From Bacteroidales bacterium (lineage in GTDB: Bacteria > Bacteroidota > Bacteroidia > Bacteroidales > UBA932), in assembly GCA_016288055.1 (NCBI GenBank), contig JAEEXZ010000002.1:20967-84966 (forward strand): 64,000 bases of DNA, written 5' to 3'. Shown in pieces: positions 3,776 to 59,860 of the stretch. Made by a program: the position numbers and the translations under genes. The notes beneath the pieces were generated by a model that saw only the letters and a list, made by a program, of their open reading frames with translations, had not been told where the DNA came from and did no database searches. Position 1 is the first letter of the stretch. Each line of letters opens with the position of its first letter.

Positions 3776-4635
3776 AGATTTACACCGACACCGACACCGA
3801 CTTCTACCCGTCCATTGCGGCAGAATACGGTTACAAGCTCATCTCCATGCCTTACAGCATCGACGCCAAAACCACGTATCCCTATGTGGACTTCAAGGAG
3901 TTCGATGCCCACGCCTTTTACGATGTGCTTCGCGGTGGCGTCCTGCCCACCACCAGCGCTATTTCCAAGGAGCAGTACATCAAGTACTTCCAGGCCGACT
4001 TCAAAGCCGGCCACGAAATCCTTTACGTGCACTTCTCCCGCAACATGACCAATACCTTCGACGCCATGGACCAGGCTGTCGCGGAACTCAAAGCCCAGTA
4101 TCCCGACGCCCGCTTCGAAGAAATCGACACCAAGGGCATCACCACCATCAGCTACGCCATCGTGCGTGAGGTCGGAGACCTTGTGAAGGCCGGCAAGACC
4201 CTGGACGAGATCCTCGCCTGGGCCCGTGAGGAAGTGGACCACTTTGCCATGTACTTCTTTGCCGACGATCTCAAGTTCTTCCGCCGCAGCGGCCGTGTGA
4301 GCGGCCTGGCAGCGACGATGGGAACGCTCATCGGCGTACGTCCCCTCATCCACATGAGCCAGGAAGGAAAGATGGTATCCGTAGGCACCGCCAAGGGCCG
4401 TCTCAACGCCATGACCTTCCTTGTGGACAAGGTGGGAGAACTGGGACAGGACATTGACAAGCACCGCATCTGCATCGGCCATACCGACGCACCGGAGATT
4501 GCTCACAACATTGCCCAGATGATCGAGAAGAAATACGGCCCGCAGGATATCGTCTTCGTTGACGTGAACCCTACGGCCGGCAGCCACTGCGGCCCCAACG
4601 GCGTGGGCGTCTGCTTCCATGCCAAAAATAGGTAA
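3769..4635 (+). CDS. DegV family (FakB-like fatty-acid-binding) protein
   Basis: DegV-type sequence (TDTDTDFYPSIAAEYG, VLPTTSAISKEQY, FFRRSGRVSGLAATMGTLIGVRPL). Adjacent to the FakA-like gene. Confidence 0.85.
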   Translation: MLKIYTDTDTDFYPSIAAEYGYKLISMPYSIDAKTTYPYVDFKEFDAHAFYDVLRGGVLPTTSAISKEQYIKYFQADFKAGHEILYVHFSRNMTNTFDAMDQAVAELKAQYPDARFEEIDTKGITTISYAIVREVGDLVKAGKTLDEILAWAREEVDHFAMYFFADDLKFFRRSGRVSGLAATMGTLIGVRPLIHMSQEGKMVSVGTAKGRLNAMTFLVDKVGELGQDIDKHRICIGHTDAPEIAHNIAQMIEKKYGPQDIVFVDVNPTAGSHCGPNGVGVCFHAKNR

Positions 4636-4673: not shown

Positions 4674-5807
4674 ATGATTGAAATCAAAGAAGTTAAATCC
4701 CGCCGCGAACGGAGGGATTTCCTGAACTTCCAGCTGGACCTGTACCAGAGCAACCGCAACTTCGTTCCGCCGCTCTATGCCGACGAAAAGAAGATGTTCC
4801 GGGAAGACTATGTCTATCGCAGCAGCTGCGAATACGTATTCTTCAACGCCTACCGTGACGGCGTGATGGCCGGCCGCATCCAGGGAATCATCCAGAAGGA
4901 CGCCAACGCCAAGAACAACGAGAAGCGCTGCCGATTCTGCCGCTTCGACGTCATCGACGACCTCGACGTCTCCCGCGCCCTGTTCGCCGCCGTCGAGAAA
5001 TGGGCGGCCGATAAGGGCATGGACACCATGGTGGGCCCGCTCAACTACTCCGACCTGGAACGCGAAGGCATGCTGGTGGACGGCTTCAACGAGCCCGCCA
5101 CCTTCGAGGAGAACTACAATTTCGCCTACTACAAGAAGCATGTGGAAGCCCTGGGATACAGCAAGGAGGTGGACTGGACCGCCAGCCGCCTTTACGGGGC
5201 CGAGAACCCGGAAGCCCTCCAGGAACTGGAAGAGCTGGTGGGATTCATCTTCAAGCGCTACAAACTGCACTACGGGACGGCCCGTTCTGGCCGGGAGCTG
5301 TTGAAGAAATACGCCACCGGCATCTTTGACCTGCTGGATGCGTCCTACGAAGGCCTGTACGGAACCGTTCCCTTCACCGACGGCATGCGCAAACTGATGC
5401 TGGAGAACTTCGCCATGGTCATCAATCCGCGCTATACGGCCGTCATCCTGGACGAGAATGAACGAATCGTCTGCTTCGGCCTGTCCTTCCCCGGCCTTGC
5501 AAAGGCGCTTTCGGGAACGCGCGGAAAATACACGCCGCTCACCCTCGTGAAGCTCCTGAACGCCATCAAGAATCCGGAAATCCTGGACCTTTGCCTGGTG
5601 GGCGTAGATCCCGAATATCTCAACCGGGGCGTTTCCGGTGCCCTGTCCCTTGCCATCATGAAGATGCTCCGCGACAACCCCCGCCTCAAGTGGGCCGACA
5701 CCAACCTGAACCTGGAAGACAACTATGCCATCCTGAACAGTTGGCGCCGCTTCCGGCGCGAAGAGTGCAAACGTTACCGTTCTTACGTAAAGTCCCTGTC
5801 ATTCTGA
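4674..5807 (+). CDS. GNAT-like acyltransferase family protein
   Basis: 377-aa ORF between the DegV-like gene and plsX. Family call rests on overall resemblance to long GNAT-like proteins. Confidence 0.55.
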   Translation: MIEIKEVKSRRERRDFLNFQLDLYQSNRNFVPPLYADEKKMFREDYVYRSSCEYVFFNAYRDGVMAGRIQGIIQKDANAKNNEKRCRFCRFDVIDDLDVSRALFAAVEKWAADKGMDTMVGPLNYSDLEREGMLVDGFNEPATFEENYNFAYYKKHVEALGYSKEVDWTASRLYGAENPEALQELEELVGFIFKRYKLHYGTARSGRELLKKYATGIFDLLDASYEGLYGTVPFTDGMRKLMLENFAMVINPRYTAVILDENERIVCFGLSFPGLAKALSGTRGKYTPLTLVKLLNAIKNPEILDLCLVGVDPEYLNRGVSGALSLAIMKMLRDNPRLKWADTNLNLEDNYAILNSWRRFRREECKRYRSYVKSLSF

Positions 5808-31148: not shown

Positions 31149-31168
31149 AATTTTTAATTATTTATGCT

Positions 31169-32158
31169 ATGCAAGAAAACAAACTGACCAAAGAACAGCA
31201 GCAAAAATTCATGGCCTTCTTGAACGAGTATGAGAAGTGCCGGAACCTCTCTAAGGAAGAGAAAGAGAACCTAATTGTTCAGATCACATCCACCACGTAC
31301 ATTGACCTCCTCTGCGATTGGGCCTTCAAACATGTCTTCGGACACAACAAGGAAAACCTGATGCTACTCCTGAACGACTTCCTTCCGGAAGAGATCATTG
31401 ACATCGAGTACGATCCCAATGAGCGGGACATGCTCCGGGGTGATGACAAGCAGGTCATCATGGATGTCATCTGTCACACTAAGGACCGTAAGTTCATCGT
31501 GGAGATGCAGAAGTGCGGCAGCAACGAGTTCCGTAACCGCATGCTATACTACGGTGCAGCGTCGCTGGCCCGGCAGCTGAATCCGGGCGACAGCTATGAC
31601 AAGTTGGTTCCGGTGTACGTAATCTGCTTCATGAACTTCCGTCTGTTACATGACACAGACCAGTTGGTGTACCGTTTCCAGGTCCGTGAACAAGACTCCT
31701 GTGAACTCTATGGTCAGCAGCTATCCATCTACCTGTGCGAACTGCCCAGATGGGTCAAACCACTGGAGGAAGCGAAGACTCCGATTGAGGAATGGTTTGA
31801 CATTTTGCAGAATATGAGTAACTTTGCAGAGAAACCAGCCACCATCAGCAAACGTTACGATTCCATTTTCGATGCTTGTCAGCGTGGCCGGTTACAAGTC
31901 AAAGAACTGGAACAATACTTTCGCGCCATGATTACAGAACGAGAAGAAAAAGGCATCGCCGCCTTCTACAAGGAAGAAGGTCTCCGTGAAGGCTTCGACC
32001 TCGGTAAGGCCGATGGCTTGGCCGAAGGTAAAGCCGAAGGTAAGGCAGAAGGTAAGGCAGAAGTAGCCAGGGCATTGTTGAAAGATGGAATGACGGCAGA
32101 GAAGGTCATGGCTTATACTGGCTTGTCAAAAGAAGAGATTGAGCACTTGCGTCAATAA
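31169..32158 (+). CDS. Rpn-family recombination-promoting nuclease/putative transposase (rpn1)
   Basis: PD-(D/E)XK-like VIMDVICHTKDRKFIVEMQKCG; C-terminal EGKA repeats; near-identical to rpn3 (58345-59370). Confidence 0.85.
   Translation: MQENKLTKEQQQKFMAFLNEYEKCRNLSKEEKENLIVQITSTTYIDLLCDWAFKHVFGHNKENLMLLLNDFLPEEIIDIEYDPNERDMLRGDDKQVIMDVICHTKDRKFIVEMQKCGSNEFRNRMLYYGAASLARQLNPGDSYDKLVPVYVICFMNFRLLHDTDQLVYRFQVREQDSCELYGQQLSIYLCELPRWVKPLEEAKTPIEEWFDILQNMSNFAEKPATISKRYDSIFDACQRGRLQVKELEQYFRAMITEREEKGIAAFYKEEGLREGFDLGKADGLAEGKAEGKAEGKAEVARALLKDGMTAEKVMAYTGLSKEEIEHLRQ
31928..32158 (+). CDS. Candidate intragenic RpnS-like product of rpn1
   Basis: In-frame internal ATG (AMITEREEKG) at codon 254, the same ATG that starts the duplicated downstream ORF. 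Confidence 0.45.
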   Translation: MITEREEKGIAAFYKEEGLREGFDLGKADGLAEGKAEGKAEGKAEVARALLKDGMTAEKVMAYTGLSKEEIEHLRQ

Positions 32159-45709: not shown

Positions 45710-46633
45710 ATGACAAAGCCTTTGGCACCTGGCGGGAAAGGGAGGTATGCATTCCTGCTGTTTGACTCCACGATGAAAGTCGTCATTTTCAACCCCGAGA
45801 ACGAGAGACTCCTGATTCAGATCCTCGAGCTGCTCATTCCGGGGAAGCACATTGCCGGTATCACATTCATGGACAAAGAGAAACACGGTTTGGTGATTTC
45901 CGAAAAAGTGGCTACCTTTGACATGTTGTGTAAAGATGCAGATACCGGCGAAGAGTTCCTGGTAGAAGTGCAGAATGCGCCGCAGAACAACTTCCAAGAC
46001 CGTGTTCTGTCGTATTCCACCTACCCTATTAGGGAACAAATGGCACGAAGGATCAGCCGCATCCGCGACGGAGAGAAGTTGGACCGGATGGACTACACTT
46101 TAAGGCCGATATACGTCCTGAGCCTTGTGAACTTCGCGCTGGAGCATGAATCGGCCGAAGCCCTGGAGGAGAACTACATCTCCCGCTATGAGCTGAGAAA
46201 CCGCCACAACGCGGAGCTCATGACCCGGAGCCTGAACTTCGTGTTCGTGGAGATGGGCCGAATGAAACTGGGCCCCGAAGACGGTGACAAGTGCAACACT
46301 TTGCTGGAAAAATTCATCTTTTCACTGAAGCACATGCATGAGCTGGACAAGTGCCCGGACAACTTCAAGGAGGACCTGCTGAAAGACCTCTACCGCGCCA
46401 CGGAACTGGCCACCATGCCCATAGAGACAAGAGAATATTACGACCAGAATATGAGAACCGAATTAGACATCATCGCCCAGAAAGACTATGCCGTCAAACA
46501 AGGCCGCGCCGAAGGCGAAGCTAAGGGGCGGGCTGAAGTTGCCAAGGCCATGCTGAAGAACGGTTTGTCCGTAGACATGGTCATGTCGTGTACTGGTCTG
46601 TCGAAGAAAGAAGTTGAGCATCTTGCCCAATAA
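45710..46633 (+). CDS. Divergent Rpn-family nuclease/putative transposase (rpn2)
   Basis: CKDADTGEEFLVEVQNAPQNNFQDRVLSYS (PD-(D/E)XK-like) and RPIYVLSLVNF. Confidence 0.82.
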   Translation: MTKPLAPGGKGRYAFLLFDSTMKVVIFNPENERLLIQILELLIPGKHIAGITFMDKEKHGLVISEKVATFDMLCKDADTGEEFLVEVQNAPQNNFQDRVLSYSTYPIREQMARRISRIRDGEKLDRMDYTLRPIYVLSLVNFALEHESAEALEENYISRYELRNRHNAELMTRSLNFVFVEMGRMKLGPEDGDKCNTLLEKFIFSLKHMHELDKCPDNFKEDLLKDLYRATELATMPIETREYYDQNMRTELDIIAQKDYAVKQGRAEGEAKGRAEVAKAMLKNGLSVDMVMSCTGLSKKEVEHLAQ

Positions 46634-46642
46634 CTGGTCACC

Positions 46643-46873
46643 ATGCCCATAGAGACGAGAGAATATTACGACCAGAATATGAGAACCGAATTAGACATCA
46701 TCGCCCAGAAAGACTACGCCGTCAAACAAGGCCGCGCCGAAGGCGAAGCCAAAGGTCGTGCCGAAGGCAAGGCGGAAGTTGCCAAGGCCATGCTGAAGAA
46801 CGGTTTGTCCGTAGACATGGTCATGTCGTGTACTGGTCTGTCCAAGAAAGAAGTTGAGGAATTGACTGTTTAG
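46643..46873 (+). CDS. Free-standing tandem duplicate of the rpn2 C-terminal segment (RpnS-like)
   Basis: MPIETREYYDQNMRTELDIIAQKDYAVKQGRAEGEAKGRAEGKAEVAKAMLKNGLSVDMVMSCTGLSKKEVEELTV; starts 9 nt after rpn2 TAA; matches internal in-frame ATG 46415. Confidence 0.75.
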   Translation: MPIETREYYDQNMRTELDIIAQKDYAVKQGRAEGEAKGRAEGKAEVAKAMLKNGLSVDMVMSCTGLSKKEVEELTV

Positions 46874-46930: not shown

Positions 46931-46949
46931 TCTTTCCCGGAGCTGGGGG

Positions 46950-47099
46950 CAACGGCAGCCATTTTCTGGGCCCTTCCACGGAGCCCGGAAAATGGCTGTC
47001 CGTAGCAGGCCCTCCTGCTTTCGAGGGCCTGCGGTGCCTTCTCACCAACACGCAATGGCCGGCGCGCCTCGTTTTGCGCGCCGGCTCCCGTGTAACCAC
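46950..47099 (+). other. Structured three-hairpin element S (candidate ncRNA), copy 1
   Basis: Stems 46952-47003, 47005-47032, 47058-47085; covarying inverted copy at 59582-59732. Confidence 0.7.
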
Positions 47100-47110
47100 T
47101 CGCATAAGCT

Positions 47111-47215
47111 TGTCATCCTGAGCGCAGCGAAGGATCTATCCGCCGTACTTCATACCCCGCCGCTGCTGTATGTACAGAAAAACTGCCTCCCAGAGCACTT
47201 TCGGTGTACATACAG
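47111..47215 (+). repeat. L repeat plus a single R1 palindrome unit (47166-47215)
   Basis: Same L+R1 order as at 30592 and 45216. Confidence 0.92.
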
Positions 47216-47285
47216 ATTCGCAATCGCCTACTTTATCGCAAGATTGGGTCGTTTGGGTGCCTTCGAGCACGAAACAGGCCCTTCT

Positions 47286-47420
47286 GGTGCTCGAGTGGGT
47301 GCAAAGGTGCTTGAAGTGATGCAAAGGAGCTCGAGGGGGTGCAAAGGAGCTCGAGGGGGTGGCAAAGGTGCTCGAGGTGGCGCAAAGGTGCTCGAGTGGG
47401 TGCAAAGGTGCATGAAGTGG
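47286..47420. repeat. Tandem ~20-21-bp repeat GGTGCTCGAGTGGGTGCAAA
   Basis: About seven imperfect copies. Confidence 0.9.
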
Positions 47421-47594
47421 GGCCTGGGCGCTTCAGGGACTAGGTTTTGGGGATGAGACACAGCCGCGAAGGGGCCCCGCGCCAGAGGGAAACTTTACGA
47501 TTTTTGACAAAAAATTTGCATTTGTATTTTTTAGTTCTTATGTTTGCAAAAATATTCGTTCGTTTATTTGAACAGTATTGAAGGCTATTAGCCA

Positions 47595-47759
47595 ATGTTT
47601 AACATTAAAATGAAGGCCATGAAAAACTTTAAGAATGCGCAAGTCTATGACTGCCCGAAGGTCGAGCCCATTGAGCTCAACACCGAATCTACCATCCTGG
47701 ACACCAGCGATGATGAGGGACAGATGACACCTAAGCCGTTTGACCCTATTTACCAGTAG
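47595..47759 (+). CDS. Small peptide ORF (54 aa) leading fimbrial locus 2
   Basis: MFNIKMKAMKNFKNAQVYDCPKVEPIELNTESTILDTSDDEGQMTPKPFDPIYQ; positional analog of 41006-41107. Confidence 0.6.
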   Translation: MFNIKMKAMKNFKNAQVYDCPKVEPIELNTESTILDTSDDEGQMTPKPFDPIYQ

Positions 47760-47781
47760 ATTAATCACCTAAACTCACACT

Positions 47782-48879
47782 ATGAAAAACGGACTCCGAA
47801 ATGGTCCCCTTTGGGGATCATTGGCCGTTGTCCTCATGGTTTCGGGAGCTTGTACGAGAGAAGGGGCATCGGCCCTTAATGGCGAAGCCTTTATCTTGCC
47901 CGGAATCATGGTCGAGTCTCCGTACACGGAGCCGGACGACGCTACAAAATCTGTAGCCGGAGAGGTTCAGTACAGGCTGTATTGGAATGCTGGCGACAAG
48001 ATTGCCATCGTGAACATATCACAGGGCAATCGGATCGACACCTATACCTCTACCGCGCGCACGAACGAAAACGACGGCCTGGCCAGCTTCAAGGCCGATG
48101 CCCAGTACTCTTACAACCCGAACGACCTGGTATTTGCCGCATATCCGGTAGATGCCATCGAGAATATTGCAACCAGCGTGGCTCCCTACAAGATTACGAT
48201 GAGCCTGGCGGACAATACTTCCTATTACATCAAGTCAAACAGCCCCATGTTCTCGCGGAACGACATTCAGGTCTCTCCGCTGATGAATGCAAGCCAGTTG
48301 CATGGTTCCGGAAACAATCTTCCCAGCATCAAGCCCAGCCGCATGACGGGCATGCTCCGCGTTTTGAGCCACATCTCCAACGAGACGCTCAGCCAGGAGC
48401 AGGTATCGGCCCTCACCGTTGCGGTGAAGGGCGTCGCAGGGCAGGCCGATATCGTCTTCTCGGGGACATCGGCCGGCGCGAAGCCGTCCCTGGCCGTGAA
48501 CATGGGCTCGGAGGACCAGATCACCGTGCTTCTGCCCAACAGGCCGAAGATGGCGTCTGCCGCCGCCATTGTTGAGTTCATCCCTGTGTTCCCCATCTGG
48601 ATGGGCCGGGACAATACCCGCGACGGGATTAGCTTTATCTTCACGACGGACCTGTACAAGGCGGCTTTCCACCGCGAAGCCAGCAGTAATGTCCGTTCCA
48701 ATAACGTCACTGCATTCAATATATTTGAAGGGTCCTACACACGGATTGGCTCGGAGGATGCTTTCTCTGCCGACAACCAGTGGTGGTACACCCTCAAAGC
48801 CGGCGGCATGAACAGCCCCGGCAACTTTGACTCCCCCGGCCCGAATATAGGCAGCAGCGCGGGAGGATTTGTTGACTAA
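47782..48879 (+). CDS. Fimbrillin-family lipoprotein
   Basis: Lipobox-like VLMVSGAC; paralog of 39914-41002. Confidence 0.7.
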   Translation: MKNGLRNGPLWGSLAVVLMVSGACTREGASALNGEAFILPGIMVESPYTEPDDATKSVAGEVQYRLYWNAGDKIAIVNISQGNRIDTYTSTARTNENDGLASFKADAQYSYNPNDLVFAAYPVDAIENIATSVAPYKITMSLADNTSYYIKSNSPMFSRNDIQVSPLMNASQLHGSGNNLPSIKPSRMTGMLRVLSHISNETLSQEQVSALTVAVKGVAGQADIVFSGTSAGAKPSLAVNMGSEDQITVLLPNRPKMASAAAIVEFIPVFPIWMGRDNTRDGISFIFTTDLYKAAFHREASSNVRSNNVTAFNIFEGSYTRIGSEDAFSADNQWWYTLKAGGMNSPGNFDSPGPNIGSSAGGFVD

Positions 48880-48902
48880 AAAAGATTTAAAGAGAACAAA
48901 CT

Positions 48903-51900
48903 ATGAAAAACGAATATCTGATTCCGGCATTAGTGCTTTTGATTCTGGCCGGATGTTATAAGGAGCAGGAACCGATACAGGAGGGCTCCATTCCCCGGAA
49001 GGGGACATTCAACTTCTCCAGTTCCACTGGAGAGGTGACCAAAGTGTTGCTGAACTCCGACAATACCCTTTTCTGGGCTAGCGGAGACAAGATTGCCGTG
49101 TATGATTACAAGGCAGGATCCGTATATGCGAAGGATATCGCCGTCCTTACGGGCGGTGAAAGTACGGCTGTGGGTACCTTTACCCCTGCCGTCAAGACAA
49201 CCAATACAGATTGGTATAACGCAGCGGACGCCTCTGACCAGGTGTATAATTTCTATGCATTCTACCCTGGCGGCACAGAAGCCGTGAATCCTACCGATGG
49301 CAAAGTGACCGTGAGTGTTGCTGCCTCCCAGCAGGAATCCGTCGGCATTGGCAAGTACATTGTTAGCTGGGCCAGTGCCAATACCACCAAGCAGAACCTT
49401 GCTGGTGGCTCGGCGCCCAACTTCGCATTCGCTCCCAAGAGCGCATTGCTCAAGCTTACTCTGCAAAACAGTGCTGACATCCCGGTGAAGATTACCTCCA
49501 TCCAGATTAGCGCCGCATCCGTGAATATTGCGGGTGATGCTAACCTGAATCTGGGTACCGGTGTCTTGTCTGCAGGTAGCGGAAAGGTAATTACCTACAT
49601 ACCCAGTAAGCCCATCGAAATTGCTGCCGGTGCAGTTGCTTCTGCACCAGTGTACATTTCATTACTGCCTGGCGCTCCCGATTCCTTGACCGTGACTCTC
49701 AACCAAGCTGGTTTCAAATACAATTCCCCTAGCATTGCTCTGGCGACCATTGAGTCGGGTCATGTGTATTCCAAAGAGGCTGCAATCAGCAGCGTGAGCC
49801 GTGAGCTGGCCATCTCTAATGATAACACAACTAACTTGGCAGATGCCGCCGCAATGGACTCTGATCCGAATCTCTACTATGGCACGTCAAACTGCGTGGT
49901 TATGGATGCTAGCGATATCCAGGGTATCATTGCTATTGGTCTTTACAGTTCCGATGATGGTTACACACGCAACAACTCTTCCGCAGGAAAGGATACTGCG
50001 GTCAAGAAGGCCAAGGTGATTTGGGCGGAGAAAGGTCTTTACGAAGATCCGAACTTCTGCATTGCTTCCGGTACAACGAACATGCTTGTCGTGACCAAGT
50101 CTGCTGGTGTCACTGGCAATGCTTTGATTGGTATCTACGATGGTAACGATGGACTCCTGTGGAGTTATCATGTCTGGTGCCCGTTTGATAAGTCTGTCAT
50201 GAGTGTCACTACAGAAAAGACGTCTACGAAGTATACTGCCTTCAAACTTGCCCTGGGCCAGATTACCGGTGCAGACAGTGATACTTATATGTACTATCAG
50301 TGGGGACGAAAGGACCCGTTGGGACGTGCAAATCCTGGCTTTATTGGGAAGAGCCTCTTGACGGTATATGGCGATGTGCCCACTACTTGGGCTACTGAGA
50401 ATGGCCGCACAAGAACAGGTGTGACGGCAAATAACATTGCATATGCACGTAAAAATCCGACCGTTTTCATTACAGATAATAATTCGACACCTTATGACTG
50501 GTACCCTGGATCTGATGCGACTCAGAACAACAACCTTTGGGTGACGACAAAGGCGACCATTTTTGACCCCTGTCCTCCGGGTTACCGTGTCGCGCCTAAG
50601 ACTCTTTGGGATGGCACCAAGGACAAGGAGGCTAGTCCTTTGTTTGAGTCCGCAGGGCTTTGGTATGTCCTTGGTGGCGGCCGTGATCGCTCGGATGGCA
50701 GCGTCAGCAGTGTGGCGTCCGGCGGCCACTACTGGTCCTCCGAGGTTTCGGGTTCGTCGGTGGGCGCGTACTACTTGTACTTCAATTCGGGCACGCGCTC
50801 GCTCCGAGAGAACATCTACCACCGCGCGAGCGGCTACGGGGTGCGCTGCGTCAAAGAAGACGACAGCAGCATCAAGCGCGAAATAGCCATCTCCAACAGC
50901 AACAGTGGTGAAAACCTGGCCAACTCCGCTGCGCTTGACGCCGCCTATGCCGACGACGAGACCGATGCCTCGTCCCTCTACTACGGTGCAGCCAACTGCG
51001 TGGTTATGGGCGCCAGCGACACCCGCGCGCTCATCGACATCAGGCTCAAGAAGTCTACCGACGGCTACTCCCGCAGCGGCGCCGACCCTTCCCCCAAGGT
51101 GACCGCCGTCAAGAAGGCCAAGGTCATTTGGGCCGAAGCAGACCTCTACCGTGATTCCAATTTCGGTATTGCCGCCGGAACTGTTAGTCAGCTGGTTATC
51201 CAAAAGTCTGCCGGTACCACCGGTAACGCCCTCGTGGGTATCTACGACGAGTCCGACCAGCTCCTGTGGAGCTACCACATCTGGTGCCCCGTGGACCGTA
51301 GCGTAGTGTCCGCCACTTCCGAGGATGCTTCTCCCTTCACCTACCAGGCTTACAAACTGGCCCTTGGTCAGATCCTGGGCGCCGACTGCGACACCTACAT
51401 GTACTACCAGTGGGGCCGAAAGGATCCTCTGGGTCGAGCGGAGAGCTCCTTTACGGGCGGTGGTAGCCTTGCCGCCACGTACGGTGTTGCTTTCTCAAAC
51501 AAAGGCCATTCTTCGACTGGTGAAACTGTTCATAATCTTGGCTACGCTCGAAAGAATCCTACCGTATTCATTTCGGACGGTAACACCACGCCTTACGATT
51601 GGTATAATCCAATGGATAAAACAAATCAGAACGACAACTTGTGGAAGTCCGATATAGCAACCATTTTCGATCCTTGCCCGCAGGGCTACCATGTTGCTCC
51701 CAAGAAACTCTGGGCTGGCAATGCCGCCAAGGTCGCAGGTCCTCTGTTTGAGTCCGCAGGGCTTTGGTATGTCCTTAGTGGCTACCGTGTTCGCACGAGT
51801 GGCAACGTCTACGATGTGGCGTCCAACGGCTACTACTGGTCCTCCGAGGCTGTTGGTGGGGCTTCTCAGTACTCCTACCACCTGAACTTCAGTTCCGGCG

Positions 51901-51965
51901 CTGGCCTGAACCGAGCGCGCAACGACTACCGCGCGAGCGGTTTCGGGGTGCGCTGCGTCAAGTGA
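48903..51965 (+). CDS. Fimbrillin-like adhesin with two tandem FISUMP-like/C-type-lectin-like domains
   Basis: Lipobox LILAGC; duplicated MYYQWGRKDPLGRA...FDPCP.GY.VAPK.LW...YWSSE...FGVRCVK. Confidence 0.78.
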   Translation: MKNEYLIPALVLLILAGCYKEQEPIQEGSIPRKGTFNFSSSTGEVTKVLLNSDNTLFWASGDKIAVYDYKAGSVYAKDIAVLTGGESTAVGTFTPAVKTTNTDWYNAADASDQVYNFYAFYPGGTEAVNPTDGKVTVSVAASQQESVGIGKYIVSWASANTTKQNLAGGSAPNFAFAPKSALLKLTLQNSADIPVKITSIQISAASVNIAGDANLNLGTGVLSAGSGKVITYIPSKPIEIAAGAVASAPVYISLLPGAPDSLTVTLNQAGFKYNSPSIALATIESGHVYSKEAAISSVSRELAISNDNTTNLADAAAMDSDPNLYYGTSNCVVMDASDIQGIIAIGLYSSDDGYTRNNSSAGKDTAVKKAKVIWAEKGLYEDPNFCIASGTTNMLVVTKSAGVTGNALIGIYDGNDGLLWSYHVWCPFDKSVMSVTTEKTSTKYTAFKLALGQITGADSDTYMYYQWGRKDPLGRANPGFIGKSLLTVYGDVPTTWATENGRTRTGVTANNIAYARKNPTVFITDNNSTPYDWYPGSDATQNNNLWVTTKATIFDPCPPGYRVAPKTLWDGTKDKEASPLFESAGLWYVLGGGRDRSDGSVSSVASGGHYWSSEVSGSSVGAYYLYFNSGTRSLRENIYHRASGYGVRCVKEDDSSIKREIAISNSNSGENLANSAALDAAYADDETDASSLYYGAANCVVMGASDTRALIDIRLKKSTDGYSRSGADPSPKVTAVKKAKVIWAEADLYRDSNFGIAAGTVSQLVIQKSAGTTGNALVGIYDESDQLLWSYHIWCPVDRSVVSATSEDASPFTYQAYKLALGQILGADCDTYMYYQWGRKDPLGRAESSFTGGGSLAATYGVAFSNKGHSSTGETVHNLGYARKNPTVFISDGNTTPYDWYNPMDKTNQNDNLWKSDIATIFDPCPQGYHVAPKKLWAGNAAKVAGPLFESAGLWYVLSGYRVRTSGNVYDVASNGYYWSSEAVGGASQYSYHLNFSSGAGLNRARNDYRASGFGVRCVK
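50641..50854 (+). other. Variable-region-like segment 1 (DGR-VR candidate)
   Basis: TGTTTGAGTCCGCAGGGCTTTGGTATGTCCTT...TACGGGGTGCGCTGCGTCAA; aligns to 51745-51961 with differences mostly at codon positions 1-2. Confidence 0.5.
51745..51961 (+). other. Variable-region-like segment 2 (DGR-VR candidate)
   Basis: See segment 1; located at the C-terminus of the adhesin. Confidence 0.5.
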
Positions 51966-52103
51966 TTTTACCGACCCGCCCCCTCTTTTCATAAGAGGGA
52001 GGAGGCGGGTCATCCCATGAAATATCCCGTCATGCGGCGGGCATCCAAAAGCACGCCGCAATATTATTAAAACAATCTATTGTTAGCTGCGCACAAACTG
52101 TAG

Positions 52104-52190
52104 GGTGATAGCAAATTCGGTGGTCCACGGCTATCCACTGTTGGCTCTTCCGGCATAAACGCCTTCGGGGTGCGCTGCGTGAAAGAATAA
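52104..52190 (+). pseudogene. Orphan C-terminal fragment of a FISUMP-type adhesin
   Basis: Reads GDSKFGGPRLSTVGSSGINAFGVRCVKE* after an in-frame TAG; no gene upstream in frame. Confidence 0.65.
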
Positions 52191-52202
52191 GAAACATTGA
52201 TT

Positions 52203-52829
52203 ATGTCCATATCCCCTCGGCTGTTACTATTGTTTGCCACGCTTGTTGCGAGCGTGGCAGGCAATAGCGCGGGGGCAGCGAAACCACAAAAGGAGCCGCC
52301 CGTCGCAGTTGCCGCGCGTACCAATGTGCTGGCTGTGCCGTTTCTGAATCTGGGGGCGGAAGTGTCCCTGGGCCGTCACTGGTCCATCGGCGCGGACCTG
52401 TACTATCCCTGGCTGCGGCGTGTGAAGGGTTCCGAGGGGATGGATTACAGCGGGAAATGTGTGCAGATTATGGCCGGCGGGCTGGAGCCGCGTTATTGGT
52501 TCGGCGGGAGCGGGCGGCTTGTGGGGTTTGGTATCGGCCTGCTTGCCATGGGCGGTTACTACGACCTGGAATGGGACTACCACGGTTATCAGGGAGAGTT
52601 TGTGAGTGGCGGGCTTGACTTTGTTTATGCCTGCCCTGTCTTTAAGGACAGGCTGCGGCTGGAGTTCTCTCTCGCGCTGGGCTATCTGTATTCCCGGGCC
52701 AGGGAGTACCAGACATACTGGGCTGGAGGCCAGGCTTTTACCGAAAAAGGAATGGCCAAGGATATTCATTTCGTGGGCCCGGTGAAGGCCGGAGTCTCTC
52801 TTGTGCTTCCAATCCGCATCAAGAAATGA
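52203..52829 (+). CDS. DUF3575-like outer-membrane protein
   Basis: ARTNVLAVPFLNLGAEVSLGRHWSIGADLYYPW; start approximate (Met at 52197 or 52203). Confidence 0.72.
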   Translation: MSISPRLLLLFATLVASVAGNSAGAAKPQKEPPVAVAARTNVLAVPFLNLGAEVSLGRHWSIGADLYYPWLRRVKGSEGMDYSGKCVQIMAGGLEPRYWFGGSGRLVGFGIGLLAMGGYYDLEWDYHGYQGEFVSGGLDFVYACPVFKDRLRLEFSLALGYLYSRAREYQTYWAGGQAFTEKGMAKDIHFVGPVKAGVSLVLPIRIKK

Positions 52830-53746
52830 AAGTATTATTACATGGGGCGCTGTCCCTTCTCTGTCTTCTGTCATGTGAACGTATGCCGCTCTACGTGAGG
52901 GAACCGTATGTGAAACTGACTCTGGAATTGAACCTGGAAGAGGGCAAGATTCCCGAGCCGGAGCACATGAAGGCGTGTTTCTTCGCTCCGGACGGCGGCG
53001 GGCTTTATAATACCCAATTTGTGGGTAGCGACGGCGGTAATTTGTCCGTTGCTTCAGGTAGCTATACCCTGCTGGTGTATTCCTTCGGCACGGAGTACAT
53101 TCAAATCCGCGGAGAGAGTTCCCTGGAAACCATAGAGGCCTTCACCTCGGACATTACCGTTTCAAAGCACACGGCCTTCCGAAGGCTTACAGGAACAAAG
53201 GCAGGAGAGGACGCCCCCATTTTTTATGCGCCGGACTATTTGCTGGTGGCCATGACCACGGTCGAAGTGCCGGAGTTCACCGGCGAGAATACGCTTGCCG
53301 AGGTTGCTCTGGAGCCCTCGTCCGTCGTGCAGACTTACTCTTTTGAAGTGACTAACGTGCACGGGGTTGACTATGTAGAGAGCGCAGAGGCGTATGTGAC
53401 CAACCAGGCGCGTTCGTACTTCATCGGCCGCATGCAGCCTTCCACTGAACCGGCGACGCTGTGGTTTCCCATAGAGGTGGACAAGGAGAAGGCCGTCTTG
53501 AATGCTTCATTCAATACATTCGGTGTGCTTCCGGGCGGCAGCGAGACTTACATCCATTTTGTGGTGCGCAGTTCCGGCGGCCAGGAGGTTACTTTCTCCA
53601 AAGATATTTCCGAGCAACTGGCTGCGCCGGAGCACAGGATTACAGTAGATGACGAGATTACTATCCCCAAGCCGTCGGGGCCCAGCGGTTTCTCTCCCGA
53701 AGTGGATCCCTGGGAGGAGGAAATACGCGACGTTCCCATCGGCTGA
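52826..53746 (+). CDS. DUF5119-like lipoprotein of fimbrial operon
   Basis: YIQIRGESSLETIEAFTSDITVSK; paralog of 43348-44280. Confidence 0.6.
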   Translation: MKVLLHGALSLLCLLSCERMPLYVREPYVKLTLELNLEEGKIPEPEHMKACFFAPDGGGLYNTQFVGSDGGNLSVASGSYTLLVYSFGTEYIQIRGESSLETIEAFTSDITVSKHTAFRRLTGTKAGEDAPIFYAPDYLLVAMTTVEVPEFTGENTLAEVALEPSSVVQTYSFEVTNVHGVDYVESAEAYVTNQARSYFIGRMQPSTEPATLWFPIEVDKEKAVLNASFNTFGVLPGGSETYIHFVVRSSGGQEVTFSKDISEQLAAPEHRITVDDEITIPKPSGPSGFSPEVDPWEEEIRDVPIG

Positions 53747-53791
53747 TTCCATATGAACCATTATTCAATCATTTTTTACACAACTAAAGCT

Positions 53792-54763
53792 ATGAAAAAA
53801 ATCCTTTTGACTCTTTTCGTCACAATGCTTCCCCTTGTAAGCTGCGTGAAATCCCGCGACGTTTATGTCGGCTCCTCCGACGCGCGTCAGATTTCCTTTT
53901 CCCCGCTGGCGCAGCCGGTGACAAAGGCCGCTGTAGAGGGGACCACATTCCCCAATCAGGCCATGTACGTAGCCGCATACGATGCGACCGCCGGGGCCAA
54001 TTACTTCGACGCGACTGCTTTCTCGCAGGACGGAAGTACCGGCAGCTGGAAATCTACTCCCGCAACGTTCTGGCCCCTGAACACAGCCACGCTTAACTTC
54101 CTGGCCTATAGCGGTGTGTCTTCCGGTGCCACCTGGAATTCCACCAATCCTGCCAGCGGTGTAGAGATTGTGCTGGCCAACAATGCCACCAATCAGTATG
54201 ACCTGATGTATGCCTGCGGCCGTCAGTCCAGGACCAGCGGATCGGCCGCAACCAGTATTGCCTTGCCTTTCAAGCATGCCATGGCACTCATCAAGTTTAC
54301 GGCATGCACTGCCGCCAATTATGGAAATCGCATGAAGATCACCAGCATCGTGCTCACCGGAGCTCACTACGCGGGCACCTACCGCGTCACTCATACCGGC
54401 TGGAATTCAGCCACCGATGCACAAAGTGTCGCCGGTACATGGGATTCCGTCGGTTCGGAGGCCAATGTGTCCATAACGCCTTCCTGGGAGAATGAGAATG
54501 CCGTGACAACCACCGCCCAGCAGGTCGGAGCCGGCATCCTGGTCGTTCCCGACGACGACGACACCAAGGACGACTACACCGGTTTTACCATCAATTATAC
54601 CATCGATGGCCATGGCTACAGTTATAATTACGCCCCGGCGGACCTTGATGTGCACCAGGCCAAGAAGTACATCTTCGCCATCAGCATGACGCTGAACGAG
54701 ATTGTCATTGTTCCTTCCGTCGTGGATTACGCAGAAGAAGGCAACAACGGCGTTACCATCTAA
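53792..54763 (+). CDS. Fimbrillin-family (Mfa1-like) lipoprotein
   Basis: MKKILLTLFVTMLPLVSCVKSRDVYVGSSDARQISFS; paralog of 42319-43302. Confidence 0.75.
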   Translation: MKKILLTLFVTMLPLVSCVKSRDVYVGSSDARQISFSPLAQPVTKAAVEGTTFPNQAMYVAAYDATAGANYFDATAFSQDGSTGSWKSTPATFWPLNTATLNFLAYSGVSSGATWNSTNPASGVEIVLANNATNQYDLMYACGRQSRTSGSAATSIALPFKHAMALIKFTACTAANYGNRMKITSIVLTGAHYAGTYRVTHTGWNSATDAQSVAGTWDSVGSEANVSITPSWENENAVTTTAQQVGAGILVVPDDDDTKDDYTGFTINYTIDGHGYSYNYAPADLDVHQAKKYIFAISMTLNEIVIVPSVVDYAEEGNNGVTI

Positions 54764-54934
54764 ACATTTCATCCGGCGGGGCCCGACCGCCCCTCCGGGT
54801 GCCAATCCAACCGTTCTTTGACATACTGACACAGAGAGAATAAGAATTTTTTGCGAAGTTCCAGATTATCATTACATTTGCTATAGGCAATTCGTTGCCA
54901 AGTAAGTGTAGTTGTATAGTCGAGGCGTCGAGAC

Positions 54935-55471
54935 ATGGACGATATCGCGAATGAACTAGCCAAGTTGCATGAACTGGAAGGTTCGGCATTTGTGTTACAG
55001 TTAAAACACATTGTTGCTCACAAGAGCTTTCGGGCTTTGGATGACCATCCTGACGTATTTACGATGGGTGAATGTGGGGAGGACTATGATAACCTATTAG
55101 ATGCGGCCCTGAAGGCCGTTGATTTAGGTTATCGGGTTTTCATTTTACCTAATCCAAAGAGGTCTCGTACGGCGGATTTTATTTTTGTCCGTCGTGGAAT
55201 ATACCGGATGTATGATTTGAAGACCATTCGCGGGAAATCGTCTGTGGGGAATCGATTGAGGGAGTCCATCGGCCAAACAAATCACGTACTGCTTAACTTA
55301 CAAGTTCGCTATAATGGAGGCCGGCTTGCCGCGGAAATCCGCAGCTTCTTTGAAATAAACCCCAAAGCATGTGAGGTGCTCGTTTTTAAGGGGAAACAGG
55401 TGTTTACCATAAAACGAGGGTATGCCTTACAAAAGGATTTCCTAATCAAATTCAGGAAGAGATATGGATAG
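54935..55471 (+). CDS. Nuclease-like protein resembling CdiA-CT/contact-toxin domains
   Basis: ALKAVDLGYRVFILPNPKRSRTADFIFVRRGIYRMYDLKTIRG and SIGQTNHVLLNLQV resemble restriction-like/BECR toxin folds; AT-richer than neighbours. Confidence 0.45.
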   Translation: MDDIANELAKLHELEGSAFVLQLKHIVAHKSFRALDDHPDVFTMGECGEDYDNLLDAALKAVDLGYRVFILPNPKRSRTADFIFVRRGIYRMYDLKTIRGKSSVGNRLRESIGQTNHVLLNLQVRYNGGRLAAEIRSFFEINPKACEVLVFKGKQVFTIKRGYALQKDFLIKFRKRYG

Positions 55472-55633
55472 AAAAAGTCACCCCGCAGGGTGACTTAGAT
55501 GATGGAGCAGGGGCGATACGGTCTTACTCCTACTCGGGAACTTACCGGATAGTCAATCATTATTGACACCTCAAAGGTAAGCATTATTTTCTGATTATCA
55601 AATTTTTCGATCGATTCTATCGGCTATCTTTCG

Positions 55634-55716
55634 TTGGACCAGGTCCAACCCCTATTTGGACGAGGTCTCGTGAATATCTGGACTAGGTCGCTTTTTACCC
55701 CTTGGACCAGGTCCAC
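55634..55716. repeat. Four iterons TTGGAC(C/G/T)AGGTC spaced 22-24 bp
   Basis: Starts at 55634, 55656, 55678, 55702; outer copies contain TGGACCAGGTCCA dyads. Confidence 0.82.
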
Positions 55717-55855
55717 CCCGTAGTCTGTAGCGCATTTGGCTGTTTTTGTTAAATGGTTAATAATCAACAAAAAACGAGAATTGCTCTCGTCTATATGGCA
55801 TGGAGCAAATGTTGTAAATTATTAATATATAATCAATTAGCAAAAACACTATAGA

Positions 55856-55902
55856 GATGCCCGATCAGGTCGGGCATGACGAGGATGAGGTCGGGCATGA
55901 CG
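55856..55902. repeat. Family-B palindromic repeat with partial second copy
   Basis: AGATGCCCGATCAGGTCGGGCATGACGAGGATGAGGTCGGGCATGACG. Confidence 0.85.
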
Positions 55903-55942
55903 TTTCTCTTTATGTTAGTTTTGTTTTAGAACGAAATACTGG

Positions 55943-57157
55943 ATGACTGATAATGAGATGAAGTGTGCAAAATACATATTGGGATTGCTGATGCTTGCTG
56001 GTTGTAGCCGTTTGGAGCAGCCGCAGGGGCGGGCCATCATGTGCCGGGCGGAGGCACCGGAACAGGCGCAGTCCCCGGCCAATGAGCAGACGAAGGGCGC
56101 CGGCGTGACCAACACGGCGGCCCTGGAGTCTTCCGGGCTCGGCCTGTTTGCCTGGCGCACCGCGGAAGGCACTCCCTTCGACGGTACGACACCATACTTG
56201 CAGAACTGCGGATTCACGTATGACAGCAATATGGATTTGTGGAAGGGCGGTGTGTACTGGCCTATCGGGTATTGGCTTTCCTTCTTCGCTTATACGCCTT
56301 ACTCGGCCGATGTCAGTACTGGCAATCTAAAATTTCCCTCCAGTGACTATGTGTCGGGGTATCCCAGGCTGCAGTTTACGCCGGATGCATCGGCCGCCTC
56401 GCAGGTGGACCTGTGCCTGGCCACGCCGGTGATGGACCGCGCGGCATCCACGAACGACGGCGTTGTGCCGCTCTCCTTCTCTCATGTGCTCACGCGGTTG
56501 TGCGTCCAGGTGCGGTGGATGGGGACCAGCGCGCAGGTTGCGCAGATATCGGCCTCGGGGCAGACGGTTCGCGTGCTGGGCATGGAAATCGGCCCTGTTG
56601 TCGGCACGAACAAGCTCACTTACGGACGGACTTCCTTCCTCTGGGACAGCCCTTCGGCCGGGGACTACGACGCGTCCTACGAGATGAGCGTCGCCAACGG
56701 TTCCTTCCGGGATGTGGCCCTTCCCGCCGCGGGAACCTATTCGACGGATTTTTGGAATATGGCCGATGCCTGCCTGTACGTGCTGCCGCAGTCCCTGGTG
56801 GCGGGCTCGGAGCTGGCGGTGACGTTCGGGATTTTCAACAGCGACGGGTCGATGGTTTCCGAGGAATCGGTCTCGTTCGATATCGGCACGCTTCCGCAAA
56901 ACCTCTGGCCGGCGGGGATGACGATGACTTATTCTGTTACGCTGGACCTTCTGGGGCACTACACCGTGGAGGCAGATGTAACTTATGACTGCAACGCCGG
57001 GACCTTTGTGGCTCCGGGAACGTTTAACTTTAACCAATCCAACGCCGGCGCCTTCCTGGGCGGCAGCTTCCAGGTGAACGACACCCGGGCCGGCGCCTAC
57101 GGGACCGACGGCATGGGGCTTGGCGGATCATCGGCCGGAGGATTTACTACAGACTGA
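55943..57157 (+). CDS. Fimbrillin-family protein
   Basis: Lipobox-like GLLMLAGC; paralog of 41148-42317. Confidence 0.7.
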   Translation: MTDNEMKCAKYILGLLMLAGCSRLEQPQGRAIMCRAEAPEQAQSPANEQTKGAGVTNTAALESSGLGLFAWRTAEGTPFDGTTPYLQNCGFTYDSNMDLWKGGVYWPIGYWLSFFAYTPYSADVSTGNLKFPSSDYVSGYPRLQFTPDASAASQVDLCLATPVMDRAASTNDGVVPLSFSHVLTRLCVQVRWMGTSAQVAQISASGQTVRVLGMEIGPVVGTNKLTYGRTSFLWDSPSAGDYDASYEMSVANGSFRDVALPAAGTYSTDFWNMADACLYVLPQSLVAGSELAVTFGIFNSDGSMVSEESVSFDIGTLPQNLWPAGMTMTYSVTLDLLGHYTVEADVTYDCNAGTFVAPGTFNFNQSNAGAFLGGSFQVNDTRAGAYGTDGMGLGGSSAGGFTTD

Positions 57158-57158
57158 C

Positions 57159-57611
57159 ATGAACAGATTCATTTATCTCATACTGCTACTGGCGACCTGT
57201 ACTTGCCGAAACTCCGCGCTCACGCCCGCCGAATACTATAATCTGGGCCGATACGCCCGTCTGGACGGAGACTGGTCGGCCGCCGTCGGGTACTTTGAGA
57301 AGGCGCTGGATGCGGCGGAATGGGCTGGTGACGACTACTACCGGGGCTACGCATGCCAGCAGCTTGCCGCCATGTGGATCCTGGCCGGGGAAAAAGCAAT
57401 TGCTTTGTCTTACTCCATAACGGCGGTTGCTGCCCTTGAGGCCTGCGGCGAGACTGCCGGAGCCTTCCTCTCCCAGCAGATTATCAAGGATTGCGAGGCG
57501 TCACCCGTACAAAAGGCCGCGGAGGTGAAGCCAGCGGTAGAGGGTTGTGCGACTGCAGCCGATGTCGCGCGCAATGGCCGCCACGGGCCGATGGGAATTC
57601 AACAGCAGTAG
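57159..57611 (+). pseudogene. 3'-truncated TPR-like lipoprotein gene
   Basis: Paralogy to 33235-32513 stops after ETAGAFLS (about 57475); the ORF tail is antisense to the recombinase C-terminus. Confidence 0.65.
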
Positions 57612-58106
57612 AATGACGTCCCTGTGCCGGTCAAGTTTTTTCATGACGGTTGTACTGCCCTTCGGCCTGCCCAGGGCTACGCCCTCGGCTTTCTTGCGAG
57701 CCAGCGCTTCGCGGGTTCGGATGGAGATAAGCTGACGCTCTATCTCGGCCGCAAGCCCGAACGTAAATGCCAGCACCTTTGACTGGATATCCTCCCCCAG
57801 ACGAAATCTTTCCTTGACGGTCCACACTCGACATTCCTTCTTGAGACAGATGTTCAGGATGTTCATGATCATGAACAGGCTTCGGCCCAGACGGGAGAGC
57901 TCGGCACAAATGATGACATCTCCCTTTCGGACTTGCTTCAGAAGCTCTCCCAGTTTACGTTCTGTTGTTTCCAGTGTCCCGGAAACTGTTTCCTGAATCC
58001 AGACATCGACGTGCAAGTTCTCACTCCGGCAATAATTAATGATTTCGAAACGCTGATTCTCCAGCGTCTGACGGTCTGTGGAGACACGGATATAAGCATA
58101 AGTCAT
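57501..58106 (-). CDS. Serine recombinase (resolvase/invertase family)
   Basis: MTYAYIRVSTDRQTLENQR, ICAELSRLGRS, GRPKGST, C-terminal HTH VAAIARDIGCSRTTLYRWL. Confidence 0.92.
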   Translation of the reverse strand: MTYAYIRVSTDRQTLENQRFEIINYCRSENLHVDVWIQETVSGTLETTERKLGELLKQVRKGDVIICAELSRLGRSLFMIMNILNICLKKECRVWTVKERFRLGEDIQSKVLAFTFGLAAEIERQLISIRTREALARKKAEGVALGRPKGSTTVMKKLDRHRDVILLLLNSHRPVAAIARDIGCSRTTLYRWLHLRGLLYG

Positions 58107-58207
58107 AACGGTTAACAAATAGTTTACCCTTATGTAAACAAATAGCCTGCTTAAAGGTGGTGACTTGTCCTGACCACCCACTCGTGAATCAGAGGGGACC
58201 ATGCAAT

Positions 58208-58260
58208 GCGGCGGGGTATGAAGTACGGCGGATAGATCCTTCGCTTCGCTCAGGATGACA
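58208..58260 (-). repeat. L repeat, inverted copy
   Basis: Reverse complement of the 53-bp L repeat (one variant base in GAGCGAAGCG). Confidence 0.93.
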
Positions 58261-58274
58261 ATGAGTATAAAATA

Positions 58275-58296
58275 ACTCCGCCGGGATGGGCGGAGC
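58275..58296 (-). terminator. Candidate terminator after rpn3
   Basis: Minus-strand GCTCCGCCCATCCCGGCGGAGT followed by TATTTTA. Confidence 0.6.
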
Positions 58297-58309
58297 AATT
58301 AATGATAGA

Positions 58310-58336
58310 GATGCCCGGTCGGAGCCGGGCATAACG
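58310..58336. repeat. Family-B palindromic repeat
   Basis: GATGCCCGGTCGGAGCCGGGCATAAC. Confidence 0.8.
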
Positions 58337-58344
58337 AAGCGACC

Positions 58345-59370
58345 TTACTGATTCAAGGCTTCGATTTCGTTCTTTGAGAGGCCGGTATATGCCATGACCT
58401 TCTCTACCGTCATTCCATCTTTCAACAAAGCCTTGGCTACTTCGGCCTTACCTTCTGCCTTACCTTCTGCCTTACCTTCTGCTTTACCTTCGGCCAAACC
58501 GTCGGCCTTGCCAAGATCGAAACCTTCGGCCTTACCGAGGTCGAAGCCTTCACGAAGGCCTTCTTCCTTGTAGAAGGCGGCGATGCCTTTTTCTTCTCGT
58601 TCTGTAATCATGGCGCGAAAGTATTGTTCCAGTTCTTTGACTTGTAACCGGCCACGCTGACAGGCGGCGAAAATCGAATCGTAACGTTTGCTGATGGTGG
58701 CTGGTTTCTCTGCAAAGTTACTCATATTCTGCAAAATGTCAAACCATTCCTCAATCGGAGTCTTCGCTTCCTCCAGTGGTTTGACCCATCTGGGCAGTTC
58801 GCACAGGTAGATGGATAGCTGCTGACCATAGAGTTCACCGGAGTCTTGTTCACGGACCTGAAAACGATACACCAGTTGGTCCGTGTCATGCAATAGGCGG
58901 AAATTCATGAAACAGATAACGTAAACCGGAACCAACTTGTCATAGTTATCACCCGGATTCAACTGCCGGGCCAATGACGCTGCTCCGTAGTAAAGCATAC
59001 GGTTACGGAACTCGTTGCTGCCGCACTTCTGCATCTCCACGATGAACTTACGGTCCTTAGTGTGACAGATGACATCCATGATGACCTGCTTGTCGTCACC
59101 CCGGAGCATGTCCCTCTCGTTGGGATCATACTCGATGTCGATAATCTCTTCCGGTAAGAAGTCATTCAAGAGCAGCATCAGATTATCCTTGTTGTGGCCG
59201 AAGACATGTTTGAAGGCCCAATCGCAGAGGAGGTCGATGTACGTGGTGGATGTGATCTGTACGATCAGGTTTTCCTTCTCTTCTTTCGAGAGGTTCCGGC
59301 ACTTCTCGTACTCGTTCAAGAAGGCCATGAATTTTTGCTGCTGTTCTTTGGTCAGTTTGTTTTCTTGCAT
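58345..59370 (-). CDS. Rpn-family nuclease/putative transposase (rpn3)
   Basis: Near-identical to rpn1 except for an expanded EGKA/EGFDLGKA repeat tract; no downstream duplicate. Confidence 0.85.
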   Translation of the reverse strand: MQENKLTKEQQQKFMAFLNEYEKCRNLSKEEKENLIVQITSTTYIDLLCDWAFKHVFGHNKDNLMLLLNDFLPEEIIDIEYDPNERDMLRGDDKQVIMDVICHTKDRKFIVEMQKCGSNEFRNRMLYYGAASLARQLNPGDNYDKLVPVYVICFMNFRLLHDTDQLVYRFQVREQDSGELYGQQLSIYLCELPRWVKPLEEAKTPIEEWFDILQNMSNFAEKPATISKRYDSIFAACQRGRLQVKELEQYFRAMITEREEKGIAAFYKEEGLREGFDLGKAEGFDLGKADGLAEGKAEGKAEGKAEGKAEVAKALLKDGMTVEKVMAYTGLSKNEIEALNQ

Positions 59371-59390
59371 AGCATAAATAATTAAAAATT

Positions 59391-59421
59391 AGTCCGGTCC
59401 TCCACCGTGGAGAACCGGACT
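59391..59421 (-). promoter_or_regulatory. Leader hairpin R5 of rpn3
   Basis: Minus-strand AGTCCGGTTCTCCACGGTGGAGGACCGGACT followed by AATTTTTAATT; identical to the rpn1 hairpin. Confidence 0.88.
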
Positions 59422-59530
59422 ACAAGTATATGCGAAAATCCCCGAAGAATTGCAATCAAAACAGACAATAATTCGGTACAAACATGCTACAATCGGCTAA
59501 AACATAAAAAGTTATCAACAACCAGGCATT

Positions 59531-59557
59531 GAGATGCCCGATCAGGGTCGGGCATGA
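59531..59557. repeat. Family-B palindromic repeat
   Basis: GATGCCCGATCAGGGTCGGGCATGACG. Confidence 0.82.
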
Positions 59558-59581
59558 CGCGGAATAGGTACGGCCGTGTTT

Positions 59582-59732
59582 GTGGTTACACGGGAGCCGG
59601 CGCGCAATACGCGGCGCGCCGGCTCCCGTGTATATGTTAACAAGGCACCGCAGCCCCTCAATACGAGGAGGGGCTGCTACGGACAGGGATTTCCCGGGAT
59701 CCGTGGAAGGTCCCGGAAAATCCCTGCCGTTG
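59582..59732 (-). other. Structured three-hairpin element S (candidate ncRNA), copy 2, inverted
   Basis: Aligns to 46950-47099 with conserved linkers and compensatory stem substitutions. Confidence 0.7.
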
Positions 59733-59860
59733 CCTCCTAGGATGGGGAGTCAGCACGTGGCGGGGCAAGGAAAGGCTGTTTTTTTGCCCCGCCAGATGCT
59801 GGAGCACGTGCTCGGACATAAAACCGGCGTTTTTTTGACCGGCCAGGTGCTAGGGTGGGG

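Follow-up and report, generated by a model that had tools for sequence, protein, structure and literature searches.

A dispersed three-way-junction repeat of gut Bacteroidales that is most likely spread by REP-type transposases

Introduction

REPs are described as single hairpins of 21–65 nt (PMC6006769), and the known TnpA-REP, in the account given in PMC8266576, acts on one strand of folded single-stranded DNA (ssDNA) that carries a GTAG. Where the sources deal with canonical REPs, this GTAG is single-stranded and does not tolerate mutation (PMC6006769, PMC8266576, PMC3733652). In TIRtrons (TIRYT), as outlined in PMC3733652, a RAYT-like gene is flanked by inverted repeats that are partly self-complementary and are also found dispersed. 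Closer in phylogenetic terms is TnpAY1 subclass 2.6 (RAYT group 5) of the Bacteroidetes, for which PMC6006769 mentions 'atypical secondary structures' that adjoin the gene and are repeated at other places in the genome; the proteins of this subclass have a median length of 179 aa and carry the motifs NH[LIV]H and YIH[QN]NP (PMC6006769).

The spreading of REPs by RAYTs has been studied almost only in Proteobacteria and with single-hairpin REPs. Here we analyse a 64,000-nt stretch of DNA (the window) from a Bacteroidales bacterium (UBA932; assembly GCA_016288055.1, contig JAEEXZ010000002.1, positions 20,967–84,966 of the forward strand). The window holds two copies of a dispersed repeat that folds as a three-way junction and whose spread is most likely the work of a single-strand transposase of the REP type (RAYT).

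Results

Two inverted copies with a three-way-junction core

Copy 1 of the repeat occupies positions 46948–47100 on the + strand and copy 2 positions 59581–59734 on the − strand. The two are 83% identical across 158 nt (BLASTN, E 7.7e-41) and have folding energies of −96.4 and −105.7 kcal/mol, respectively (z −9.8 and −11.5 against dinucleotide shuffles). The ends of copy 1, at 46946–46948 on the left and about 47096–47100 on the right, are common to copies of the same genome that lie in unrelated contexts. An earlier note on this DNA had described an inverted pair of three-hairpin elements, and the positions, linkers, loop and double-sided stem changes that it quoted were all found again in the sequence; the stem changes are compensatory. 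The arrangement of the hairpins needs correction. Stems 1 and 2 are enclosed by the pairing of GGCA with TGCC, and the first two hairpins are therefore the arms of a three-way junction. Similarly, the segments CTGTCCGTAG and CAACGGCAG are indeed shared by the copies but are not purely linkers, since the CCGT of the former pairs with the ACGG of the latter and so forms the base of stem 1. For the third stem the note gave 10 versus 16 bp; in copy 1 it has 11 bp, with a 5-bp outer stem set apart from it, and in copy 2 it runs unbroken for 19 bp.

In copy 1 (all features on the + strand), the 5′ strand of the closing stem P0 (GGCA, 46948–46951) pairs with positions 47035–47038, and these pairs covary. 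P1 (46952–47003) consists of the ACGG/CCGT base, a bulged T (46999), a long stem and an apical GGGC-CCTTCCACGGA-GCCC. At the foot of P2 lies a GTAG-like tag (47002–47005) whose GT takes part in the pairing of the P1 base, whose A is the invariant junction base and whose last G pairs in P2. P2 itself (47005–47032) has 10 bp and an 8-nt loop and is followed, as the alignment of copies indicates, by an unpaired conserved GG and the 3′ strand of P0, TGCC (47033–47038). A GC-rich third hairpin, P3, is predicted by folding at 47049–47094 and is variable across the family. In copy 2 the core runs from 59734 to 59644, with GTAG at 59680–59677 and P3 at about 59632–59588. (Note that a pseudoknot between ACGGA in a loop and TCCGT is possible on paper; the pairing of the P1 base, which covaries, explains TCCGT better.)

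The fold covaries across the family

The consensus of 122 copies reads GGCA-[long hairpin P1]-A-[hairpin P2]-GG-TGCC, with variable hairpins after this core; the core is thus a three-way junction of about 90 nt to which P3 is an extra. The apex of P1 is usually GGGC-CCTTNNANGGA-GCCC. All 61 non-redundant copies have the A at the junction, and the GG is almost invariant. When the same 122 copies (121 distinct) are aligned to the fold, 92.2% of cells are paired, compared to 65% in shuffled alignments and 35–48% in slid registers. Among the 121 distinct copies, 40 of 41 pairs show double-sided changes, and the covariation score of 0.54 (0.14 when shuffled) was reached by none of 500 shuffles. Because alignments of this kind are fitted to the covariance model, we added a structure-free check, in which 30 non-redundant cores were aligned with MAFFT; here 7 of the 10 column pairs that covary most strongly correspond to RNAalifold pairs, and one P0 pair ranks 11th. 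These findings bear out the proposal of the earlier note that a secondary structure of RNA or DNA is under selection. The tag takes part in this covariation. Of 76 copies, 41 have GTAG at the foot of P2, and most others have a tag of the form xTA[G/A] (the variants being CTAG, CTAA and GTAA); the first two bases of the tag pair into P1, where AC:GT changes jointly to AG:CT, and its last base pairs into P2.

G-T cells exceed A-C cells by 90 to 41, which suggests that the strand given here is the one more likely to be under selection to fold. A tolerance of G-U above A-C, together with a fold that is very stable and covaries, would also suit a structured RNA, either a small RNA or a cis-regulatory leader or 3′ element, that is selected at the RNA level and copied incidentally. 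We consider this reading unlikely, given that the repeat has no match in Rfam, that the genes next to it are not conserved and that its distribution is multi-copy, patchy and linked to RAYT genes, as described below.

A repeat family of gut Bacteroidales

We used two covariance models, R1, built from four copies of the window genome, and R2, built from 67 copies; copy 1 scores 186.6 bits with R1 and 105 bits with R2. In the search of Bacteroidales genomes that the earlier note had proposed, R1 found homologues in 54 of 400 genomes of the same genus. R2 found 9 copies in the window genome and matches in 17 of 200 genomes of the family, drawn from 6 of 26 genera. With R2, no match was found in 247 other genomes of the order, a set that doubles as a negative control for GC-rich hairpins. 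A strict pattern search of 200 same-genus genomes, superseded by the covariance model, had recovered only the window genome's own copies. In an exact-pattern scan of GTDB, matches came almost all from rumen or gut Bacteroidales metagenome-assembled genomes, and two actinobacterial matches were taken as chance. Neither copy can be placed in an Rfam family, there being no match at or above the gathering threshold; the best hit below it (E 0.21) was to an unrelated lncRNA model. The structure is thus, as the note had it, of an unrecognised type. The two stretches are genuine members of a family of short, dispersed DNA repeats in gut Bacteroidales that had not been modelled before.

The number of model matches ranges from 1 to 27 per genome, with the maximum in G293. 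(Note that in this genome, RUG173, a full element can be followed by a tandem mini-element with a very short P1, GGCAACAGACGAAGTCTGTAGCCGCC..., as at positions 4001–4213 of locus L091.) Copies are 70% identical within a genome and 52% between genomes; they occupy unrelated contexts with their ends in common, most of them as singles and others in tandem or as inverted pairs. One site, on contig C24 of G309, allows a comparison between close species. Two copies are present there, whereas the model has no match at the orthologous site of G005, G036, G361 or G141, in which the flanking gene is 76–95% identical. In G005 (95% flank identity) the intergenic match extends as far as GATGCCCGGTCAAGCC, breaks at the start of the element region and goes on with no element. 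The comparison demonstrates that the element was gained or lost between close species, short of a caught transposition.

The genes that adjoin copies are not conserved, and the families that recur most often are rpn, RAYT and an IS transposase. The IS3 and IS110 elements found near copies of the window genome are absent beside other copies, and the repeat was rejected as a part of either. (Note that, on contig C56 of the window genome, an IS110-family transposase gene at 1844–3120 of L154 is 84 nt away from a copy; insertion in REPs is known for some members of the IS110 family, such as ISPpu9 (PMC8450116).) Zinc-ribbon IS transposase genes adjoin copies in four genomes (L155, L157, L164 and L171). 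Around two copies of the window genome (L012, 9500–10400, and L013, 2060–2300) there are mosaic intergenic blocks of other repeats, namely GTGCTTTAA units and a GGCCGAAGGAATTTGGTTTTTCGGG palindrome.

The earlier note had also remarked that the window pair brackets about 12.6 kb. As geometry this holds. As a mobile unit it was rejected: the genes inside are unrelated, and a second genome with two copies about 12.7 kb apart is non-syntenic, shares no gene content with the window interval and has its copies in the opposite relative orientation.

Copies lie near rpn genes more often than expected by chance

Both window copies lie beside rpn genes, as had been noted, at distances of 193–318 nt. The gene at 45710–46633 (+; PDDEXK_2, Pfam PF12784, E 9.5e-33) is upstream of copy 1, and that at 58345–59370 (−; PDDEXK_2, PF12784, E 1.8e-38) is downstream of copy 2 and shares its strand. 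(Note that at 46634–46870, immediately before copy 1, the 3′ end of the rpn gene is partially duplicated in tandem over 227 bp with 91% identity.) A third rpn gene of the window, at 31151–32155, is 93% identical to that at 58345–59370 and has the same 5′ leader without the repeat, so the repeat is not a fixed part of the rpn leader. In the leader of both of these genes a perfect hairpin (AGTCCGGTTCTCC...GGAGGACCGGACT) immediately precedes the ATG, and the repeat is upstream of only one of them.

In 12 element-bearing genomes, which together hold about 20 rpn genes, 6 of these genes have an element no more than 430 bp away (e.g. G089:C15, G359:C43 and G426:C103), compared to 0.35–0.53 expected if 10–15% of the DNA is assumed to be intergenic (P about 1e-5, with 2 of the 6 due to a local duplication in G426). 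The proximity of the repeat to rpn genes is therefore statistically real, and rpn is its most recurrent neighbour family. Four of the 6 copies concerned are 60–241 nt upstream of rpn and on the rpn strand, which is what a cis-regulatory RNA might look like; the leader without the element at the third window gene argues the other way. The same association could arise if Rpn (PD-(D/E)XK) nucleases acted on the repeats as a substrate or left them as a by-product, with Rpn rather than RAYT seeding the copies beside rpn. We regard this as very improbable. Besides the duplication in G426, most rpn genes have no element, and an rpn gene is absent from G293 and G297, which hold 27 and 13 matches, respectively.

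Copies flank divergent RAYT-like genes

RAYT-like open reading frames (ORFs) adjoin elements in seven genomes (G036, G309, G005, G430, G090, G277 and G250) at distances of 4–255 nt; four ORF ends are 4, 8, 13 and 13 nt from an element, and the others 158–255 nt. With random intergenic placement in the same loci as the null, 8 of 125 elements are within 260 bp of a RAYT gene compared to 3.2 expected (P 0.0024), a conservative estimate since only loci that contain a RAYT gene enter the null, although G309, G005, G036 and G361 belong to a single RAYT group and so are not independent. At the G361 locus, which was chosen by its gene (group A) and not by an element, a degenerate copy lies just downstream. 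Groups A, B and D and the C-like pair (G277 and G430) are only 11–18% identical to one another. Moreover, the dispersed elements of G309 and G005, those of G036 and most of those of G250 are nearest to the copies that flank their own or a sister RAYT gene.

The flanking proteins are divergent, about 300 aa in length, and have a C-terminal extension. H-x-H and Y...N motifs are conserved (the latter as YIPRNA, YVFRNP, YLLNNP or YIGNNP), except that the HUH motif is lost in G036. (In this gene, at 5094–6017 of L082, TRGLC stands in place of the SHGHC or THGHC of relatives that are 74–76% identical, and the Tyr motif is kept.) A profile of the flanking proteins has TnpA-REP (4er8) as its top solved PDB match in a sequence-based search (E 5.8e-5). 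Single proteins match NCBIfam REP_Tyr_transpos below its cut-off, and several remain below the NCBIfam and Pfam cut-offs. By sequence, the HUH motif, the catalytic Tyr in Y--xN(P) and the relation to TnpA-REP place these genes in the RAYT/TnpA-REP family, and in seven genomes, as in a REPtron, a RAYT gene is adjoined by copies of its cognate repeat.

In G250 an inverted pair of elements flanks the RAYT gene, and the same pair occurs at three sites with other, unrelated filler; inverted pairs are also found at G309 C24 and G036 C53. Such pairs might be the terminal inverted repeats (TIRs) of a RAYT-bearing transposon, a TIRtron with MITE-like deletion derivatives, in place of REPs that are mobilised singly. 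This seems quite improbable to us: the majority of copies occur singly, unrelated genes fill the 12.6 kb between the window pair, the RAYT-adjacent copies differ in orientation, and the ends are structured rather than plain TIRs.

Note that in the window genome, whose assembly is 87.5% complete, none of six Y1_Tnp genes is adjoined by a full element, and on the window's contig there is no RAYT match. RAYT-like genes are found in 348 of the 400 genus genomes, compared to 54 for the element, and most such genes are without it. The RAYT-like family of about 300 aa is greatly expanded in G000 and most genomes of the genus (often 10–29 first-look candidates per genome), mostly without the repeat.

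Discussion

The element is probably a non-autonomous, RAYT-mobilised, REP-like mobile repeat with a three-way-junction build. We envisage that when one strand becomes single-stranded, for example as the lagging-strand template, it would fold into the junction, with its closing stem GGCA/TGCC, long P1, invariant A, P2 (which has the GTAG-like tag at its foot) and GG strand. A RAYT/TnpA-REP protein of the divergent kind (HUH and Tyr, about 300 aa), acting in cis or in trans, would recognise the folded ssDNA, bind it, cut nearby and join the strand elsewhere. Copies would thereby build up between genes, singly, in tandem or as inverted pairs. Counting against this reading, the six Y1_Tnp genes of the window genome have no full element beside them, most RAYT-like genes of the genus lack it, the RAYT of G036 has lost its HUH motif, copy numbers of 1–27 are low for REPs, and the tag, unlike that of canonical REPs, is largely base-paired and variable.

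Several very divergent RAYTs share one DNA fold, and a tag set within a covarying junction offers a natural test of what a RAYT reads, be it tag, hairpin or junction. More tentatively, the repeat could represent a distinct RAYT-mobilised class, in which the tag sits inside a base-paired junction read as a whole by a divergent lineage of about 300 aa, tag and stem can co-vary, and a real affinity for rpn hints at an interplay of REP transposase and Rpn; we hold this to be possible, with the odds somewhat against it. The link with Rpn nucleases is testable, and the covariance model is ready for annotating the repeat in many rumen and gut Bacteroidales genomes.

How does the repeat compare with known systems? 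Like the ends of IS200/IS605 elements, whose subterminal hairpins are recognised by a HUH transposase of the Y1 type, it would offer hairpins to a HUH protein; in contrast to them, neither TnpB nor a mobile unit whose left and right ends are fixed was seen here. It shares with TIRtrons (TIRYT) a RAYT-like gene between inverted, partly self-complementary and also dispersed repeats, but here most copies are single, and the available account in PMC3733652 does not report TIRs as three-way junctions. TnpAY1 subclass 2.6 belongs to the same phylum and likewise has atypical structures beside the gene and copies in the genome. The flanking proteins described here fall outside that subclass (about 179 aa, NH[LIV]H, YIH[QN]NP), being about 300 aa long with other Tyr motifs. 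Note that some of the 'atypical secondary structures' reported for subclass 2.6 (PMC6006769) may be related to our element.

The closest likeness is to REPs, BIMEs, REPINs and REPtrons, with which the repeat has in common dispersed intergenic hairpins, cognate copies flanking an HUH-Tyr transposase gene, inverted pairs, genome-specific subfamilies and, to some extent, GTAG at a hairpin foot. As in REPs, it is extragenic and multicopy, albeit with 9 copies in its own genome and up to 27 matches per genome, which is low compared to typical REPs. Where a REP has GT[AG]G 0–2 nt 5′ of the hairpin foot, GTAG stands at the foot of P2 in the 41 of 76 copies noted above, though paired into P1 and P2. 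Where a REP is one short hairpin of 21–65 nt, the element is a junction of about 90 nt with P1 and P2, plus P3. It thus differs in its two-hairpin three-way-junction core, its paired and variable GTAG, its low copy number and the divergent RAYTs of about 300 aa beside it: it probably works like a REPtron repeat, built on a junction in place of the single hairpin of a canonical REP.
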